Below are positions 45,481 to 64,000 of a stretch of 64,000 bases of DNA, piece after piece. The DNA lies in assembly GCF_964355755.1 (NCBI RefSeq), contig NC_092674.1, positions 935,001-999,000 of the forward strand, in the 5' to 3' direction. The notes under the pieces were generated by a model that worked only from the letters and a program-made list of their open reading frames with translations, was not told the origin of the DNA and did not search any database. The position numbers and the translations under genes are program-made. The DNA is from Antedon mediterranea (lineage: Eukaryota > Echinodermata > Crinoidea > Comatulida > Antedonidae). Each line of letters begins with the position of its first letter. Positions within the stretch are counted from its first letter, which is position 1.

Positions 45481-45977
45481 GAACAATTAATCCCATATGT
45501 AGCGATACAGTACAGAATACGGTGTTCATTTTAAAAAAGGTTATGTGATTTGAACAATTAATCCCATATGTAGCGATACAGTACAGAATACGGTGTTCAT
45601 TTTAAAAAAGGTTATGTGATTTGAACAATTAATCCCATATGTAGCGATACAGTACAGAATACGGTGTTCATTTTAAAAAAGGTTATGTGATTTGTACAAT
45701 TAATCCCATATGTAGCGATACAGTACAGAATACGGTGTTCATTTTAAAAAATGTTATGTGATTTGTACAATTAATCCCATATGTAGCGATACAGTACAGA
45801 ATACGGTGTTCATTTTAAAAAAGGTTATGTGATTTGTACAATTAATCCCATATGTAGCGATACAGTACAGAATACGGTGTTCATTTTAAAAAATGTTATG
45901 TGATTTGTACAATTAATCCCATATGTAGCGATACAGTACAGAATACAGTGTTCATTTTAAAAAAGGTTATGTGATTT
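45481..45977. repeat. 71-bp minisatellite, 7 copies
   Basis: ACAATTAATCCCATATGTAG recurs every 71 bp (45481, 45552, 45623, 45694, 45765, 45836, 45907), with nearly identical copies. It lies downstream of WDFY2. Confidence 0.93.
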
Positions 45978-46625
45978 GTATTTTTACTGTTAATAATATT
46001 TATTGAATGATGATTTTATTAATTAAATTTCTTTTCCCAGGGTGTTTTGTAAAACAACTTGTTTCCATCTCGCACATTTTGGAAGAGCAATTCGTATCAT
46101 CATTATCATGATGAGATCAGTGGTCCTCGTGGTCGGGAGTGTTGCCAAATGCCCAGTAGTGTGGTTGATGGTCTGGTCAGTGGTGGTCCAGTGGTCCTTG
46201 TACCCTATTTAGGCCTAATGTCCACTATTTAGATTAATTAGTGGTCTAGAGTATTGTCAACATGTTCACTAGTGTTGTTATTTAGTGGTCTGGTCAGTAT
46301 TGTCCAGTGGTCCTTGTACGCCATTGTCTTCCTTTGTATCCCCATGATGTCCAGTTACTTTAATATTGTATATTTATCTGTTCTTCTAGATTAGGAAGAT
46401 ATTTTATGTATGAGATTTAAAAATTATAAAGATAACTACTTCAGAATCCTATGATCACAATATACGAACCTGTCGAATAAGGATGGAGGTGTCTGTATGC
46501 TTGCTTTCTTTCTACCACCAACTGCTTTATACTGTGAAAACGTAGGAGGCCTAAATGGTTTTACAAAAAGAAATTTATGATTGCTTTTCATGTAGTAATA
46601 AGCATAATTCCATTTTTTGATTTAT

Positions 46626-48101: not shown

Positions 48102-50506
<2,405 letters not shown>

Positions 50507-50715
50507 ATACCAAACTGGCGAGTAAATCATGTTTTACTTTTTAAACCTCGCAACGTCTGGTTGAAAAGTCTACTCGGACCAATAATTTCTATTAGCCTAG
50601 GGGTTATTGCGATTTGGACGTTTCTGATTGGCTGTAGCCATGGACTATATTGATTAACACTGTTCTGATTGGTTGTAGCTTTGAATACATCTTCTCGGAA
50701 CTCGTCCTTAATACA

Positions 50716-52420
50716 ATAGCAATTTAGCACAGTGTTTTACTATAATTAAATAGCAATTTAGGTAAATGTCTTTTGAAATGAAATTAAATAAATTATAACC
50801 AATTTGGTTAGAGTAAAACACAATGATAAAGAATAGGAAACATTTAATAATAATTATGATAAATTACATTTACATAGCAATTTAGCACTGTGTTTTACTA
50901 TAACCAATTTGGTTAGAGTAAAACACAATGATAAAGAATAAGAAACATTTAATAACATGATAAATGACATTTAGCAATTTAGCACTGTGTTTTACTATAA
51001 CCAATTTGGTTAGAGTAAAGCACAATGATAAAGAATAGGAAACATTTAATAACATGATAAATGACATTCACATAGCAATTTAGCACTGTGTTTTACTATA
51101 ACCAATCAGATTAGAGTAAAACACAATGATAAAGAATAGGAAACATTTAATAATATGATATATAACATTTACATAGCAATTTAGCACTGTGTTTTACTAT
51201 AACCAATTTGATTAGAGTAAAACACAACGATAAAGAATAGGAAACATTTAATAACATGATAAATTACATTTACATAGCAATTTATCACTGTGTTTTACTA
51301 TAACCAATTTGGTTAGAGTAAAACACAATGATAAAGAATAAGAAACATTTAATAACATGATAAATGACATTTACATAGCAATTTAGCACTGTGTTTTACT
51401 ATAACCAATTTGGTTAGAGTAAAGCACAATGATAAAGAATAGGAAACATTTAATAACATGATAAATGACATTCACATAGCAATTTAGCACTGTGTTTTAC
51501 TATAACCAATCAGATTAGAGTAAAACACAATGATAAAGAATAGGAAACATTTAATAATATGATATATAACATTTACATAGCAATTTAGCACTGTGTTTTA
51601 CTATAACCAATTTGATTAGAGTAAAACTCAACGATAAAGAATAGGAAACATTTAATAACATGATAAATTACATTTACATAGCAATTTATCACTGTGTTTT
51701 ACTATAACCAATTTGGTTAGAGTAAAACACAATGATAAAGAATAGGAAACATTTAATAATATGATAAATTACATTTACATAGCAATTTATCACTGTGTTT
51801 TACTATAACCAATTTGGTTAGAGTAAAACACAATGATAAAGAATAGGAATTTAATAATATGATAATAACATTTACATAGCAATTTAGCACTGTGTTTTAC
51901 TATAACCAATTTGATTAGAGTAAAACTAAACGATAAAGAATAGGAAACATTTAATAACATGATAAATTACATTTACATAGCAATTTATCACTGTGTTTTA
52001 CTATAACCAATTTGGTTAGAGTAAAACACAATGATAAAGAATAGGAAACATTTAATAATATGATAAATTACATTTACATAGCAATTTATCACTGTGTTTT
52101 ACTATAACCAATTTGGTTAGAGTAAAACACAATGATAAAGAATAGGAATTTAATAATATGATAATAACATTTACATAGCAATTTAGCACTGTGTTTTACT
52201 ATAACCAATTTGGTTATGGTAAAGCACAATGATAAAGAATAGGAAACATTTAAAAATATGATAAATGACATTCACATAGCAATTTAGCACTGTGTTTTAC
52301 TATACCAATTTGATTAGAGTAAAACACAATGATAAAGAATATGAAACATTTAATAATATGATAAATTGCTAGCACTGTGTTTTACTATACCAATTTAGTT
52401 TTGGATAAAGAATATGAATT
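50716..52420. repeat. About 101-bp satellite, left array (about 16 copies)
   Basis: The unit contains AGCACTGTGTTTTACTATAA, CCAATTTGGTTAGAGTAAAAC and ACAATGATAAAGAATAGGAA; the first two segments are each other's complement, so every monomer is a potential hairpin. Starts at 50883, 50971, 51080, 51181, 51282, 51383, 51484 and on. Variant AACCAATCAGATTAG recurs 404 bp apart (51103 and 51507), which shows a four-unit higher-order repeat. Confidence 0.92.
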
Positions 52421-52792
52421 TAAAGAATGGATATAATATGATATGATACAATATGATTTTCTCCCAATTAGTAAGACATTTTGGAATACTGCGTGCGTAG
52501 TGCACCTAACAAGATCATGTTCGCTATTTAAAACTCACATTTTAAAACCGTAAACGCATAAATTTGCGGACATACTCGTAAAACACACTTCCAGAGATTT
52601 AATAATTTTAACAGTACTACAAAATCTAAATATAAAGTAGTATAGATTTGTACAAAAAGAGCAGAACAATTAAATTAACTGTCATTACATCTACTGAACT
52701 GTCTCATTACATCTACTGAAAAATTCATCGCGATGAATTTATTTATAATACACCAATCAGATCACACGCAATTAGTATGGAATGCCAGTTTA

Positions 52793-53681
52793 GGCGATGA
52801 TAAAATCGCGTCGATGATGCAATGAAAATTGCGTCGATGTGATGAAAATTGCGTCGATGAATATAGTATTGATGTAATGATGTGATGAACATTGCGTCGA
52901 TGAAAATTGCGTCGATGTAATGAAAATTGCGTTAATGTGATGAAAATTGCGTCGATGAAAATTGCGTCGATGAAAACTGCATCGATGAAAACTGCATCGA
53001 TGAAAAAAAAAATAATTTTCATCGATGCAGTTTTCATCGATGAAAATTGCGATCTCTCTGCCGGTATGATTTGAATATGATGTCATGGATGCTGGACATC
53101 TGGATTTTATGTACTGAACTGGTGGATTAACGGAAGCAATTAGCTAGAAGATATAATGTGTCCGAAAGGACAATAATGGATCCATTGCTAAAATGTGTTG
53201 ACAATAAATCACTAAAATGTTAATCAGTGCATATATTTCAACATTGTTTTAGTGCGCGATCACTGTGCGCTTGTCTATAACGCGCGCTAGCGCAAGCGGT
53301 AAACATGTTTATCATATCAAAATATTCAGAAACCGTCAATTTTTAGCAACATAATAACATTATTAACATCATCATTAACATCATCATTTACTTTACTAGT
53401 AGTCATTTTCATCATTGATTGAATTAAAACCATTTTGAATTTTCATAATCAATTAAATTCATCACATCAATTTTCATCGATGCAGTTTTCATCGACGCAA
53501 TTTTCATCGATGCAGTTTTCATCGACGCAATTTTCATCGACGCAATTTTCATCGATGCAATTTTCATCGACGCAATGTAAATTGCGTCGACGCAATCTAC
53601 ATTGCATCGACGCAATCTACATTGCGTCGATGCAATTTTCATCGACGCAATTTCATCATCGACGCAATTTTTATCATCGCC
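52793..53681. mobile_element. Foldback element with 15-bp repeats in both arms (TU-like)
   Basis: The left arm (52793-53050) is built of a 15-bp repeat GCGTCGATGAAAATT; the right arm (about 53460-53681) has the same repeat inverted (AATTTTCATCGACGC). The outermost GGCGATGATAAAA matches inverted GGCGATGATAAAAA at the right edge. Because 15 is a multiple of 3, the arms give open frames of ASMKI or IDA[IV]F repeats, including a 178-aa frame at 53424-53960, that need not be genes. The layout matches sea-urchin TU foldback elements, whose arms also have 15-bp tandem repeats. Confidence 0.7.
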
Positions 53682-53954
53682 AAAAACTTGTGTAAAACGG
53701 CGTTCCATAAGTGACGAATCGCATATTCGCCGTTTATTGTTGAGGCGCGTAAACAGTGTGCGCAATGCACGTTTTCTTCCCATGACGAGACGAATCGATA
53801 TTCGACTCTTCGTGTGACGAATAATCGCCAAATTATAATTAATATAATTAATTAATGAAATAAGATACGCAGTTGATGTTTGCATCAATTGTTCTTTAGA
53901 ATAAATACTTTCGAAATACAAAACAAAAAATGTGTGGTGAGTGACTATATGTTC

Positions 53955-53995
53955 AATCATGGACCTATAAATTACTAATTTATAGGTCCATGATT
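53955..53995. repeat. Perfect 19-bp hairpin, 3-nt loop
   Basis: AATCATGGACCTATAAATT and its exact complement flank the loop ACT. It is unrelated to the satellite monomer, lies near the middle of the 50.5-59.2 kb block, and has no T-run after it. Confidence 0.85.
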
Positions 53996-54329
53996 CAATA
54001 TCTGTAGCTTCAATTCAAACATAATGTAACAGAAAATTCGAAGCGTAAAAAACGTTCGTTTACACAACACTTTTTTTTATACTTTATTATTGATTATTAT
54101 ATTATACAGGAATACTATTTATTTCCTCATTTCTACCCAAGAATAAACAATTTTTGGATACAAAACTTTATGTGAATTACATTACCAAAATATTAAAATG
54201 AGGATAAAAAAACATCGCGTAAAATACTCGTACTCAAAAGCTTCTGAAATTTGTAGATATATGTCATGAAAAAGAAATTTGACATTCCCAATAAATTTTT
54301 TTGGCAAAAATGTAATATATGAAACATAC

Positions 54330-56170
54330 AATTTACATAGTTTATCATTGTTTTTTATTAGAACCAATATGGTTACACAGTTAAACATAGTGATAAAGAA
54401 TAGATACTTGTTAGGTTACTACCCTACCCTCTAGTTTGAAGCGACATTATAAATTCATCGAGAAAAAAAACGTATCGTATTCAGAAACTTTTGACATTTT
54501 GTATAGATATGTTCAATAAGACAAAACAAATTATAAATTTCAAGACAAATCGATGATTTCCATTATTTGCATTTCAAAAAATTCACACTTATGAAAGACC
54601 ATACATTTTCAACATTTCCTTTTTTCTGTGTACCGAGTTTAGAAACTTTTTGAATACCAGACGTATTTTTTTGTGATACTTTTTCATTTGAATTGTAGTA
54701 TAAAATGTAAAAAATCATACAAGACATGTTATAATAGGTTGCTCTATATACATAACAAAATTAGTTCTTTTTTTTTGGTAAGAATCGCCAATGAAGTAGA
54801 AAGTTATTTCAGATGTAGTGTGCATTTATACGTCATTAATAGTAGGCCTAAAATATAATATTAAATATTATAAAGAATATCAAACATTTTATGTTATGAA
54901 AAATAAACTTGACATATAAGTTTATCATTGTGTTTTACTATAACCATTTTGGTTAAAAGTTAAACACAGTGAGTGATAAAGAATAGAACTGTTTTAGTTT
55001 ATTTAACCCTAACCCTAGTTTGAAGCGATCACATATTTAATATTCATCGCTAAAAATACGTATCGTCTTGAAAAACGTTTGATATTTGGTAGATATGTTC
55101 AATATAGGTTCTTACATCTATAATGCAAAAGAAATATCCTAATAGTTTTATTTTGATTTCTGAGAATCATAAATGAAGTAAAAATGTGTTGGAAATGTAT
55201 TGTCTTTCATAAGTGTAAATGTTTAGAAATGCAAATTATTAAAATCACGAATTTGTCTTGAAACTTTTATTTTTTGTTTGTTTTATAGACGTAAGAACCT
55301 ATTGAACATATTTACCAAATTTCAAATGTTTCTGAATACGATACGTATTTTTTCGCGATGAATTAAGTATGTGATCGCTTCAAACTAGGGTTAGAGTTAT
55401 ATAACCTAAAACAGTGTCTATTCTTTATCATTGTGTTTAACTGTGTAACCAAATTGGTTCTGTAAAACAAGATGATAAACTATGTAACTTGTATTTATTA
55501 TTATTACATTATATGTATCCTATAATGTAATATGAAAAATAAAATGTACATAGTTTATCATTGTGTTGTACTAAAACCAATTTGGTTAAAAGTTAAACAC
55601 AGTGTTAAAGAATGAACTGTTAGGTTATTTAACCCTAACCCTAGTTTGAAGCGATCACATACTTAATTCATCGATAAAAATACGTATCGTCTTAAAAAAC
55701 GTTTGAAATTTGGTACATGTTCAATATAGGTTCTTACATCTATAATGTAAAAGAAATATCATAATTTGTTTTATTTTGATTTCTGGGAATCATCAATGAA
55801 GTAAAAATGTGTTGGAAAATGTATGGTATTTCATAAGTGTACATTTTTAGAAATGCAAATTATTAAAATCACAAATTTTTTGTGAAATTTATATTTTTTG
55901 TTTGTTTTATAGACGTAAGAACCTATTAAACATATCTAACAAATTTCAAAAGTTTCTAAATACGATACGTACTTTTTCGCGATGAATTTATTATGTCGCT
56001 TCAAACTAGGGTTAGGGTTATATAACCTAAAACAGTATCTATTCTTTATCACTGTGTTTAACTGTGTCACCAAATTGGTTCTGTAAAACAAGATGATAAA
56101 CTATGTAACTTGTATTTATTATATTATTACATTATATGTATCCTATTCTTTTCATAACGTTTAGATAATA
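54330..56170. repeat. Palindromic modules with AACCCTAACCCTAG motif
   Basis: A module with AACCCTAACCCTAGTTTGAA, then TTCATCG...ACGTATCG and ATGTTCAATATAGGTTCTTA, occurs forward near 54905-55140 and 55545-55760 and inverted near 55270-55490 and 55895-56115, with a diverged copy near 54340-54500. The forward/inverted pair is itself tandemly duplicated with a period of about 630 bp. Each module is flanked by a half satellite monomer. Confidence 0.8.
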
Positions 56171-56204
56171 AGATATGTTTAATATAATATTTTGCTATGT
56201 AAAT

Positions 56205-57836
56205 AATATCATATAATAAATGTTTCATTATCATTGTGTTTTACTGTAACCAAATTGGCTATAGTAAAACACAATACTAAATTTGTATGTAAATGTATCA
56301 TATTATTATATGTTTCCTATTCTTAATTTGTGTTTGACTGTATCCAGCACAGTGCTAAATATCATTTATCATAGTTAAAATGTTTTACTCTAATCAAATT
56401 GGTTATAGTAAAACACAGTGATAAATTACTATGTGAATGTCATTTATCATGTTATTAAATGTTTCCTATTCTTTATCATTGTGTTTTACTCTAACCAAAT
56501 TGGTTATAGTAAAACACAGTGCTAAATTGCTATGTAAATAATCATTATTATTAAATGTTTCCTATTCTTTATCATTGTGTTTTACTCTAACCAAATTGGT
56601 TATAGTAAAACACAGTGATAAATTGCTATGTAAATGTCATTTATCATATTATTAAATGTTTCCTATTCTATATCATTGTGTTTTACAATAACCAAATTGG
56701 TTATAGTAAAACACAGTGCTAAATTGCTATGTAATGACATTTATCATATTATTAAATGTTTCCTATTCTATATCATTGTGCTTTACCATAACCAAATTGG
56801 TTATAGTAAAACATGGTGCTAAATTGCTATGTAAATAATCATTATTATTAAATGTTTCCTATTCTATATCATTGTGCTTTACCATAACCAAATTGGTTAT
56901 AGTAAAACACAGTGATAAATTGCTATGTAAATGTCATTTATCATATTATTAAATGTTTCCTATTCTTTATCATTATGTTTTACTTTAACCAAATTGGTTA
57001 TAGTAAAACACAGTGCTAAATTGCTATGTAAATGTCATTTATCATATTATTAAATGTTTCCTATTCTATATCATTGTGCTTTACCATAACCAAATTGGTT
57101 ATAGTAAAACACAGTGATAAATTGCTATGTAAATGTCATTTATCATATTATTAAATGTTTCCTATTCTATATCATTGTGTTTTACTATAACCAAATTGGT
57201 TATAGTAAAACACAGTGCTAAATTGCTATGTAAATAATCATTATTATTAAATATTTCCTATTCTTTATCATTGTGTTTTACTCTAACCAAATTGGTTATA
57301 GTAAAACACAGTGCTAAATTGCTATGTAAATGTCATATATCATATTATTAAATTCCTATTCTTTATCATTCTGCTTTACTTTAACCAAATTGGTTATAGT
57401 AAAACACAGTGCTAAATTGCTATGTAAATGTCATTTATCATATTATTAAGTGTTTCCTATTCTTTATCATTGTGTTTTACTTTAACCAAATTGGTTATAG
57501 TAAAACACAGTGCTAAATTGCTATGTAAATGTCATTTATCAAATTATTAAATGTTTCCTATTCTATATCATTGTGTTTTACTCTAACCAAATTGGTTATA
57601 GTAAAACACAGTGCTAAATTGCTATGTGAATGTCATATATCATATTATTAAATGTTTCCTATTCTTTATCATTGTGTTTTACTCTAACCAAATTGGTTAT
57701 AGTAAAACACAGTGCTAAATTGCTATGTAAATAATCATTATTATTAAATGTTTCCTATTCTTTATCATTGTGTTTTACTATAACCAAATTGGTTATAGTA
57801 AAACACAGTGATAAATTGCTATGTAAATGTCATTTA
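56205..57836. repeat. About 100-bp satellite, right array, inverted orientation
   Basis: The same satellite as 50716-52420 read on the other strand: TTTACTCTAACCAAATTGG, TTATAGTAAAACACAGTGCT, AATTGCTATGTAAATGTCAT and TTTCCTATTCTTTATCATTG, repeating about every 100 bp for some 15 copies. Variants TTACTATAACC, TTACTTTAACC and TTACCATAACC mark subtypes. Confidence 0.92.
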
Positions 57837-58781
57837 TCAATACAGTGTCCCTTTGGAAGACGAAAAAAAAATTGGCCATTAATCATAGCCATTTCAGTTT
57901 TTTGTTTATTTTAAAACATACCACACGTGTGTGAAGGTACAGTAGTTAAATAATAGGAATTATACTGCAAATTAATAAAGATCAAATTAAATATACGCCA
58001 TAAAGAATCAGAATATATTGTGGGGAATAGTATTATAAAATTACATAGGGAGATTTGATAAGACATTTTTCGAGTGAAATCCCGATAGCTGAGTTTTATT
58101 GAGTAAGCTTGCAGGAATAACTGTAGGCTATCTTCCTGTGTCCCGTTAGGACCGAGATGTCTGCCCATGTTGCAAGCCGTAATGTCTTCTTTCTTGGGCC
58201 CACTCTGTCACGGCAGTTAGTTTCAAAAGATGATTAAATTAAATAATGTATTAATAATTATTAGGATGGTATTCATTTGAATAAACGCCTCTCCAATAAA
58301 ACATCACTTTGAATAATAACACCCCCCCCCCCACAACCCAACTATCTAATAAACGTCCATCCACATATTTATAATAACACAATTATACTATTTGTAGTAG
58401 AATTCACCGCACTGTTATCTGCAATTTACCAAGCATTTGTTATTCTTTTTTACCACTTTTCATATCTATGAGAGGATTTCATTTGATTATAAATGTTACC
58501 ATATTATTAGAACTAAAAAATTTAACATATATCCCTCGAATAAGCACCTCCCTCAAATGACCTCCGCCTCCCCAAAGGGCCCTACCAAACAATAAAAACT
58601 ATACTTTAAAATGTTATTAATCATCTAAAACACTGTGAAACAAAGTAGTTCAGTTTTACGAATGTCAAGCATTTTCAATAATTGTAACCGACAGAAAATG
58701 TATAAGGAGAACATTATCATTCCGAGAACCATCGTCTACACTTCCTAGAGGGGGAGCGAGCGAAGCGAGCTCACCCTCTAG
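57837..58781. mobile_element. Non-autonomous Helitron-like insertion in the satellite
   Basis: The satellite phrase TTTATCA|TATTATTAAATG is split. After CATTTATCA the sequence departs, and TATTATTAAATGTTTCC resumes at 58782 with no target duplication. The right end is a GC hairpin (GAGCGAGCGAAGCGAGCTC, inside CTAGAGGG...CCCTCTAG), ends in CTAG and is followed by T, as in Helitrons (hairpin, CTRR, A/T target). The left end may be TC at 57837. No Rep/helicase frame. About 945 bp. Confidence 0.75.
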
Positions 58782-58850
58782 TATTATTAAATGTTTCCTA
58801 TTCTTTATCATTGTGTTTTACTCTAACCAAATTGGTTATTGTAAAACACA
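58782..58850. repeat. Satellite remainder right of the Helitron-like insert
   Basis: TATTATTAAATGTTTCCTAT through CCAAATTGGTTATTGTAAAA continues the right satellite array in phase, ending near ACACAGTATATTTTACC. Confidence 0.85.
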
Positions 58851-59239
58851 GTATATTTTACCTCAACAACATCGCCGCAAAATTGTTTATACGTTTATTT
58901 TGATTGGCTAACTAAAGTACGGTCTAATGAATATTGATATCAGAAGATTCCCTAGCTTAGTGAAAAAGTTTTATTACCAAAAATATGCTGATTACGTCAC
59001 TACCGGAAGTTGTAGTCTAGCATGATGCAGACGCAATTGATTATGTACGTTTGTTAAACATATAAAAAGCTGTAAATTACCACAAAACGACAATAGGAAA
59101 GAATTCAAAGAAATGCCCTACGTGTTCAAAATCATTGTTTTAATATAGTCTGTATGTATAACTAACAATTGACCTTGTGGAAGAGCGTATAAATTTAATT
59201 TAAAGTAAAACATGATTTACTCGCCAATTTGGTATTGGA

Positions 59240-59245
59240 TATATA
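59240..59245 (+). promoter_or_regulatory. Possible TATA element upstream of ZRSR2
   Basis: GGATATATAGC lies just outside the right 34-bp inverted end, 114 bp before the ZRSR2 start codon. The mirrored TATATA at 50497 sits at the same distance from the left end, facing MOSPD1. Confidence 0.35.
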
Positions 59246-59354
59246 GCTCGAATACAATGGTGTCGTTGTCGTGTTGTTACGCATAAACGTAAATCACATT
59301 TATTTTTACCACAACCCACACGCCGCCCTCTTGCGAGGAGATACATGAAAATTA

Positions 59355-62199: not shown

Positions 62200-64000
62200 A
62201 AAAACCAATATTTTATCTTGTTCTGAAGGTGTTCATGTCATCATCCTTACCCTATTATTAGTACAACACTTTATCTTGTTGTGAAGGTGTTCACGTCATC
62301 CTCCTTACCCTATTATTAACCAATATGTTATCTTGTTCTGAAGGTGTTCACGTCATCATCCTTACCCTATTATTAACCAATATGTTATCTTGTTCTGAAG
62401 GTGTTCACGTCATCATCCTTACCCTATTATTAACCAATATGTTATCTTGTTCTGAAGGTGTTCACGTCATCATCCTTACCCTATTATTAGTACAACACTT
62501 TATCTTGTTCTGAAGGTGTTCACGTCATCATCCTTACCCTATTATTAACCAATATGTTATCTTGTTCTGAAGGTGTTCACGTCATCATCCTTACCCTATT
62601 ATTAACCAATATGTTATCTTGTTCTGAAGGTGTTCACGTCATCATCCTTACCCTATTATTAGTACAACACTTTATCTTGTTCTGAAGGTGTTCACGTCAT
62701 CATCCTTACCCTATTATTAGTACAACACTTTATCTTGTTGTGAAGGTGTTCACGTCATCATCCTTACCCTATTATTAACCAATATGTTATCTTGTTCTGA
62801 AGGTGTTCACGTCATCATCCTCACCCTATTATTAACCAATATGTTATCTTGTTCTGAAGGTGTTCACGTCATCATCCTTACCCTATTATTAGTACAACAT
62901 TTTATCTTGTTGTGAAGGTGTTCACGTCATCATCCTTACCCTATTATTAACCAATATGTTATCTTGTTGTGAAGGTGTTCACGTCATCATCCTTACCCTA
63001 TTATTAACCAATATGTTATCTTGTTCTGAAGGTGTTCACGTCATCATCCTTACCCTATTATTAACCAATATGTTATCTTGTTCTGAAGGTGTTCACGTCA
63101 TCATCCTTACCCTATTATTAGTACAACACTTTATCTTGTTCTGAAGGTGTTCACGTCATCATCCTTACCCTATTATTAACCAATATGTTATCTTGTTCTG
63201 AAGGTGTTCACGTCATCATCCTCACCCTATTATTAACCAATATGTTATCTTGTTCTGAAGGTGTTCACGTCATCATCCTTACCCTATTATTAGTACAACA
63301 CTTTATCTTGTTCTGAAGGTGTTCACGTCATCAGCCTTACCTTATTATTAGTACAACACTTTATCTTGTTGTGAAGGTGTTCACGTCATCATCCTTACCC
63401 TATTATTAGTACAACACTTTATCTTGTTCTGAAGGTGTTCACGTCATCATCCTTACCCTATTATTAGTACAACACTTTATCTTGTTGTGAAGGTGTTTAC
63501 GTCATCATCCTTACCCTATTATTAACCAATATGTTATCTTGTTCTGAAGGTGTTCACGTCATCATCCTTACCCTATTATTAACCAATATGTTATCTTGTT
63601 CTGAAGGTGTTCACGTCATCATCCTTACCCTATTATTAGTACAACACTTTATCTTGTTCTGAAGGTGTTCACGTCATCATCCTTACCTTATTATTAGTAC
63701 AACACTTTATCTTGTTCTGAAGGTGTTCACGTCATCATCCTTACCCTATTATTAGTACAACACTTTATCTTGTTCTGAAGGTGTTCACGTCATCATCCTT
63801 ACCCTATTATTAACCAATATGTTATCTTGTTCTGAAGGTGTTCACGTCATCATCCTTACCCTATTATTAACCAATATGTTATCTTGTTCTGAAGGTGTTC
63901 ACGTCATCATCCTTACCCTATTATTAGTAAAACACTTTATCTTGTTCTGAAGGTGTTCACGTCATCATCCTTACCCTATTATTAACCAATATGTTATCTT
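62200..64000. repeat. 57/58-bp two-state minisatellite, at least 30 copies, open at window end
   Basis: The core TTATCTTGTTCTGAAGGTGT ... ATCATCCTTACCCTATTATT is constant; the unit ends either in AACCAATATG (57-bp unit) or AGTACAACACT (58-bp unit). The two endings follow one another irregularly. A secondary CTTGTTGTGAAGG variant occurs mainly after the second ending. 57-bp units keep a 19-codon frame, the 58-bp units break it, so short repeated frames (62325-62513, 62956-63144) are not genes. It lies in the ZRSR2 intron starting about 75 bp after the 62125 donor. Confidence 0.95.

Follow-up and report, generated by a model that had tools for sequence, protein, structure and literature searches.

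A block of mirrored satellite DNA in the Antedon mediterranea genome is a young, high-copy, non-autonomous foldback DNA transposon. It lies in the 64,000 nucleotides that we analyzed (the window; C5:935001-999000 of the 354-Mb genome). Its ends recur about 60 times across the genome in inward-facing, near-identical pairs, flanked by perfect 7-bp target duplications and, in one case, matched by an empty site. These results bear out the transposon reading of a preliminary description of the locus, which had made that reading depend on the ends not being confined to this one place. They occur about 60 times genome-wide.

The element in the window and its copies

The preliminary description had placed the block at 50507-59235. 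Those ends are real, but the true termini lie 14 bp further out on each side, at 50493 and 59249 (Table 1). Of the 48 positions in each end, 42 are the same in both, including an internal run of 25 identical bases, and the ends are thus terminal inverted repeats. Within them, the two arrays of one satellite in opposite orientation were also described correctly: they are 92 to 95% complementary over up to 395 bp. Being inverted arrays of a 101-bp unit, about 1.5 kb each, they form the long, internally repetitive inverted repeats that characterize foldback elements. An anchor count taken over the left arm together with the interior gives 16 units. The interior holds the inverted modules that had been noted, 16 pairs of 61 to 107 bp with 75 to 97% identity. 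The monomer does form a hairpin; its 37-nt core folds at −13.8 kcal/mol (z −7.4), which 0 of 200 shuffles equaled.

Table 1. Positions of the family-1 element and its parts in the window
Feature	Position	Strand	Basis or remark
Complete family-1 foldback element, 8,757 bp	50493..59249	+ (left-to-right)	Borders are those of most genomic copies
Target-site duplication GAATACA, left copy, 7 bp	50486..50492	.	Direct sequence
Target-site duplication GAATACA, right copy, 7 bp	59250..59256	.	Direct sequence
Left terminus CAGGTATATAAACTATACCAAACTGGC plus family-1 palindrome GAGTAAATCATGTTTTACTTT	50493..50540	+	About 60 copies
Left subterminal single-copy stretch	50541..50793	+	Near-identical in 40 scored copies
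Left satellite array, 15.7 copies of 101-bp monomer	50794..52367	+	
Interior with mirrored modules and degenerate lone monomers; no coding domain	52368..56380	.	Inverted pairs; six-frame scan
GATGAAAATTGCGTC minisatellite	52798..53006	+	Inverted relative to 53468-53675
Inverted partner of the minisatellite	53468..53675	-	
Right satellite array, 14.7 copies of 101-bp monomer	56381..57839	-	Inverted relative to left array
Private insertion of ~940 bp in right array	57842..58781	.	Absent from 8 other copies
Remainder of last right-array monomer	58782..58853	-	Within 58782-59249, 100% identical to C1 and C2 copies
Right subterminal single-copy stretch	58854..59201	-	98-100% identity, 40 scored copies
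Right terminus GAGCTATATATCCAATACCAAATTGGC plus same family-1 palindrome as left	59202..59249	-	

The insertion in the right array is missing from all eight of the other copies compared. Because it is private to the window copy, the standard element is about 7.8 kb. The inserted segment has a G+C-rich hairpin followed by CTAG at its end and is sited between A and T. It could be a Helitron-type insertion, a candidate assignment from these sequence marks, but its 5′ end does not begin with TC. Two further tandem repeats lie near the element: a clean 71-bp repeat at 45483-45980 (7 copies, 98%) and a 57-bp array at 62203-64000 (31 copies, 93%) that has a three-unit period of 172 bp and runs past the end of the window. 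The block had been described as lying between MOSPD1 and ZRSR2. On the right we found one CCCH zinc finger, which is compatible with ZRSR2; on the left nothing was found.

The 22-bp terminal core of this family (family 1) occurs 60 times in forward and 60 times in reverse orientation in the genome, and a reversed control pattern not at all, which rules out chance. Among the matches listed, 54 inward-facing pairs were resolved, spanning 0.55 to 22.8 kb (median, 8.8 kb; mostly 5 to 23 kb). At the 40 best places for each end, copies begin and end at the same base, and in nearly all of them the left 208 bp and the right ~410 bp are 98 to 100% identical; in most scored copies the ends themselves are 99 to 100% identical. 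The last 468 bp (58782-59249) are 100% identical in the window copy and the copies on C1 and C2, and the burst was therefore recent.

Flanks were read for 10 family-1 copies with both ends exact, and every one of these copies has a perfect duplication of 7 bp at its target site (GAATACA, CCTCTAT, ATCGTCT, CACTAAT, GAATATC, TCTCATA, TTAATTG, TGTGGAT, CTGTATG, and ACTGAAG). No clean duplication accompanies the copies whose ends are damaged or altered (C1:24608380, L035, and L036). The target sites show only a weak palindromic A/T bias. The copy flanked by ACTGAAG (L042) is a miniature of 553 bp with two right ends and no array. It sits in a tandem repeat, and the neighboring repeat unit serves as the empty site: the occupied unit reads GCGCACTGAAG / element / ACTGAAGATG and the empty one GCGCACTGAAGATG. 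At C3:19063800-19066000 (L043), another mobile insertion of ~1.7 kb splits the left terminus of a family-1 copy.

Termini and satellites of two sister families

Searching the genome with the outer terminus brought up a second family (family 2), with 54 forward and 55 reverse ends genome-wide and 0 for the control. A typical copy, C3:4295360-4301509, is 6,150 bp long with GCTGTGC duplicated at its flanks, and its mirrored arrays consist of a 106-bp monomer; 7-bp duplications are likewise found in this family. Three loci (L045, L049, and L051, the last at C5:1643600-1646700) represent a family-2 subfamily with the end CAGG...TTGACTATTGAGAATTCTCAAC; GTCCTGC precedes it at all of them, in surroundings that differ. 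This subfamily may form part of a larger repeat.

The outer ~26 bp of each terminus are common to both families and specific to the side of the element (CAGG.. on the left, GAGC.. on the right). The conserved left part is CAGGTATATAAA(C/A)TATACCAAA(C/T)TGGC, and the conserved right part is GAGCTATAT(A/T)TCC(A/T)ATACCA...TGGC. Inside them lies a palindrome of ~20 bp, GAGTAAATCATGTTTTAC in family 1 and TAGTTGAGAATTCTCAAC in family 2, which is the same at both ends within a family but different between families. The 106-bp satellite is related to the 101-bp satellite; its fold into a hairpin is poor (z −0.75).

The family-1 monomer can be written TGTTTTAC-TATAACCAAATTGGTTATA-GTAAAACA and the family-2 monomer TGTTCTCAAC-TATAGTCATTTTGGTATA-CTTGAGCACA. 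The terminus of each family can be aligned with that family's monomer, and the register and the 2-base gap are identical in the two alignments (TATACCAAAxTGGC--xAGT...). The family-2 alignment is significant, with none of 2,000 shuffles as good; the family-1 alignment taken alone is not (322 of 2,000). The arms of the monomers score 11 to 16 against the terminal palindrome within a family and 6 to 8 across families, a comparison of two families that was framed after the data were seen. A random 60-mer would contain an exact 8-bp arm with a probability of 0.2 to 0.4% per family. This within-family match is the best evidence that the satellite may be a multiplied end-recognition sequence, and on such sequence comparisons the monomers are most likely reiterated, putative transposase-binding sites. 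The earlier proposal that the monomers are reiterated copies of the terminus gains support, mainly from family 2, whose terminus and monomer changed jointly. As a pair of young sister families, the two amount to a natural swap experiment: each transposase should bind the monomers of its own family and not those of the other.

Allowing up to 3 mismatches, there are 1,945 family-1 and 2,084 family-2 monomers in the genome, and 99 of the 100 listed monomer places for each family are inside or beside an element of that family. The arrays illustrate cleanly how a satellite can grow inside a transposon: of about four thousand monomers, hardly any have escaped. They are present in nearly all of the larger copies read, in both families; counting the lone monomers of the interior, there are 9 to 24 units on the left-arm strand and 14 to 92 on the right-arm strand. 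When copies are compared, monomers from corresponding arms are 98.5% alike, whereas left and right monomers of a single copy are 94.4% alike. Therefore, transposition carries the arrays along, and the two arms change length separately. Gene conversion between the arms is unsupported by these values, since the arms are more alike between copies than within one. In the 22.8-kb copy on C4 (L025 to L027, C4:31170850-31194050), a near-perfect palindromic element of ~7.2 kb with the ends TATGGCAAGCCTCAGCTGTC occurs twice in direct order, and about 2 monomers separate the two occurrences. It is apparently another foldback family that inserted into the array and was duplicated with it.

Proposed transposition and the source of the transposase

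Five pairs of neighboring elements were found, and in all five the right ends face each other, 7, 11, 17, 21, and 80 bp apart. Two pairs join family 2 to family 2, and three join family 2 to family 1. A perfect 7-bp duplication flanks each of the two partners in four of these pairs; in the one at C1:15786460 the sequence is CAATCGA for both, giving CAATCGA-element-CAATCGA-element-CAATCGA. In the fifth pair, on C2, the family-1 partner is flanked by a perfect 7-bp duplication and the flanks of the family-2 partner mismatch. A 12.6-kb family-2 locus on C1 that might be taken for one element with four arrays is instead two elements, right to right, sharing one duplication. By simple arithmetic, a 354-Mb genome holding about 100 elements should contain by chance about 0.003 pairs separated by no more than 100 bp, and if orientation were free, five of five right to right would arise about once in 1,000. 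These head-to-head insertions suggest that a complex bound at the right end may guide the incoming copy; Drosophila P elements can insert beside resident P ends. Head-to-head insertion at right ends is also a signature of self-targeting that can be counted, and it can be searched for in other foldback elements.

We think it probable that these families are non-autonomous foldback transposons moved by a transposase supplied in trans, with the satellite monomers as putative reiterated binding sites. The transposase would recognize both termini and insert the element through a 7-bp staggered cut, as the duplications and the one empty site indicate. The side-specific outer ~26 bp, common to both families, are what would be expected of a part needed for cleavage, and the family-specific inner palindrome of ~20 bp is what would be expected of a part needed for sequence-specific binding. 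The monomers, which have the arms of the terminal palindrome around a CCAAATTGG-type core, would then be binding sites multiplied into tandem arrays that have opposite orientations in the two arms. Such arrays may raise the local concentration of transposase; they move along with every copy that transposes and vary in length within an arm, and the complex bound at the right end would direct incoming copies head to head just outside it. We infer from the patterns described above that the monomers may serve as binding sites, that a bound complex may attract incoming copies, and that the transposase, as discussed below, may belong to the P superfamily. More tentatively, the element may be self-homing: its satellites would be family-specific docking arrays for the transposase, coevolving with the terminal palindrome, and a right-end transposase complex would direct head-to-head insertion beside the element. 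If this is true, a single DNA code would govern end recognition, satellite sequence, and choice of target. The two families bear on the long-standing question of why foldback elements keep long, costly internal repeats.

The satellite could also be a passenger in a mobile foldback element, an AT-rich repeat grown by unequal exchange whose likeness to the terminus is due to chance or to descent without function. The nonsignificant family-1 alignment fits this, as does the length of the arrays, which varies freely (reaching about 92 right-arm units) and without apparent consequence. The 553-bp copy transposed with no array, and the arrays are therefore not essential. However, the two families share outer termini, yet their palindromes and monomer arms differ in the same way; the low chance expectation for an 8-bp arm in each family and the retention of arrays in nearly all larger copies also make a mere passenger rather unlikely. 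The right-to-right pairs might for their part reflect not right-end targeting but aberrant events, in which the ends of two sister copies were used or an inverted duplication occurred. P-type transposases make hybrid-element events, which would provide a route, and two of the pairs are of the same family. We doubt this explanation, because intact 7-bp duplications flank both partners in four of the five pairs and one partner in the fifth, three pairs join different families, and partner lengths differ. That the block is immobile, and that what separates the divergent genes is a host satellite or a conserved bidirectional promoter, is hardly conceivable. It adjoins a gene, with one CCCH exon on the right, but about 60 dispersed near-identical copies with target duplications refute this view.

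As for the enzyme that would act in trans, no transposase bearing the family termini was found. There were no transposase frames in any copy read, and no match to a P (PF21787), MULE (PF10551), or hAT (PF05699) domain was found inside a located element, the distance check for hAT covering 24 of the 59 matches. MULE matches were neither in nor close to an element. A six-frame Pfam scan of the interior of the window element gave only a weak pentapeptide-like match, to the minisatellite, and no transposase domain. Copies of 13 to 23 kb were considered as the autonomous partner and rejected, those examined being long through array growth or nested inserts and not through genes; a long copy on C10 has about 92 right-arm-strand units. 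Loci of the P superfamily (L039 and L059 to L064) were scanned for 7- or 8-bp duplications together with inverted ends and were also rejected: only the family at C1:2823415 was resolved, and its ends differ. A transposase combining THAP and TNP-like RNase H domains with the termini described here was not found in the located elements or at the P loci examined, which lack these ends; because the partner may lie elsewhere, the P superfamily stays a candidate.

The resolved P-element family of the host has recent near-identical copies at C1:2823415 (L039), C3:37950354 (L040), and C8:6208861 and an intact 794-amino-acid (aa) frame with a TNP-like RNase H domain. Its C1 copy lies within a gypsy-like gag frame and is flanked by the 7-bp duplication CGGACAC. 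It resembles the foldback families in the length of this duplication (one copy read) but differs from them in its terminus, CTGAGACAACAATC, in its terminal inverted repeat, CTGAGACAACAATCAAAGAG, and in having no satellite arrays; by sequence it is not their partner. Target duplications are usually 8 to 11 bp for Mutator elements, 8 bp for hAT elements, and 8 bp for P elements. In the foldback families the duplication is always 7 bp, outside both the hAT and the Mutator lengths and equal to that of Galileo, a member of the P superfamily, and of the host P element. Because of this fit we favor the P superfamily over Mutator, as a lean and not as an assignment. That a Mutator (MULE) transposase mobilizes the elements seems improbable to us, although most foldback elements are assigned to Mutator in the literature (PMC4079207) and the genome has intact recent MULE copies. 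Five MULE-domain loci (C2:1382286, C2:15352026, C3:9339044, C5:1627366, and C11:21020252) have the same 651-aa frame length and the same score and are probably a recently active Mutator family. Against Mutator stand the constant 7-bp duplication, the same length made by an intact P element of the host, and the absence of MULE domains in or near an element.

Comparison with known foldback elements

Drosophila FB and sea-urchin TU elements have long inverted repeats built of short tandem repeats, and FB duplications are about 9 bp. In general description the elements studied here share such tandem-repeat inverted arms, and the resemblance to foldback elements noted at the outset holds structurally. 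The accompanying statement that no described family of this kind was known is too strong as a claim of a new kind, since both Galileo and Tetris have internal tandem repeats in long inverted repeats.

Galileo of Drosophila makes 7-bp target duplications, and many of its copies lack a transposase (PMC3573991, PMC3688188). Its inverted repeats are long and, in some subfamilies, contain tandem repeats (PMC3573991, PMC3688188). A terminal segment of ~40 bp is conserved between its families, the inner part being family specific, and its tandem repeats contain demonstrated sites for the THAP domain of the transposase (PMC3688188). The families here are like Galileo in their 7-bp duplications, in the tandem repeats within their inverted repeats, and in having shared outer and family-specific inner termini. 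By analogy, Galileo is the closest known precedent in how the element would work. Its tandem repeats, however, are about 210 bp long and few (two or three copies in the D. mojavensis F subfamily), compared to 9 to 92 units of 101 to 106 bp per arm, with hairpin monomers, in the families here. Galileo has a transposase and none was found here, and the likeness is one of description. Right-to-right self-insertion was not found for Galileo in the literature examined.

Tetris (TIR-220) of Drosophila virilis is a non-autonomous, modular foldback element with tandem repeats of ~220 bp inside its inverted repeats; the repeats are thought to derive from a terminal domain, and the ends are shared with a miniature element (PMC4079207). 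Being likewise non-autonomous and modular, with tandem repeats in inverted repeats, it is by analogy the closest in build. Tetris differs in its 8- to 10-bp duplications and few complete copies, and its repeats have escaped into free satellite arrays, whereas 99% of the listed monomers here are in or next to elements. A foldback transposon of this sort is not categorically new. What is new here is the scale and hairpin form of the monomer, the covariation of terminus and satellite in two sister families, and the right-to-right self-insertion.
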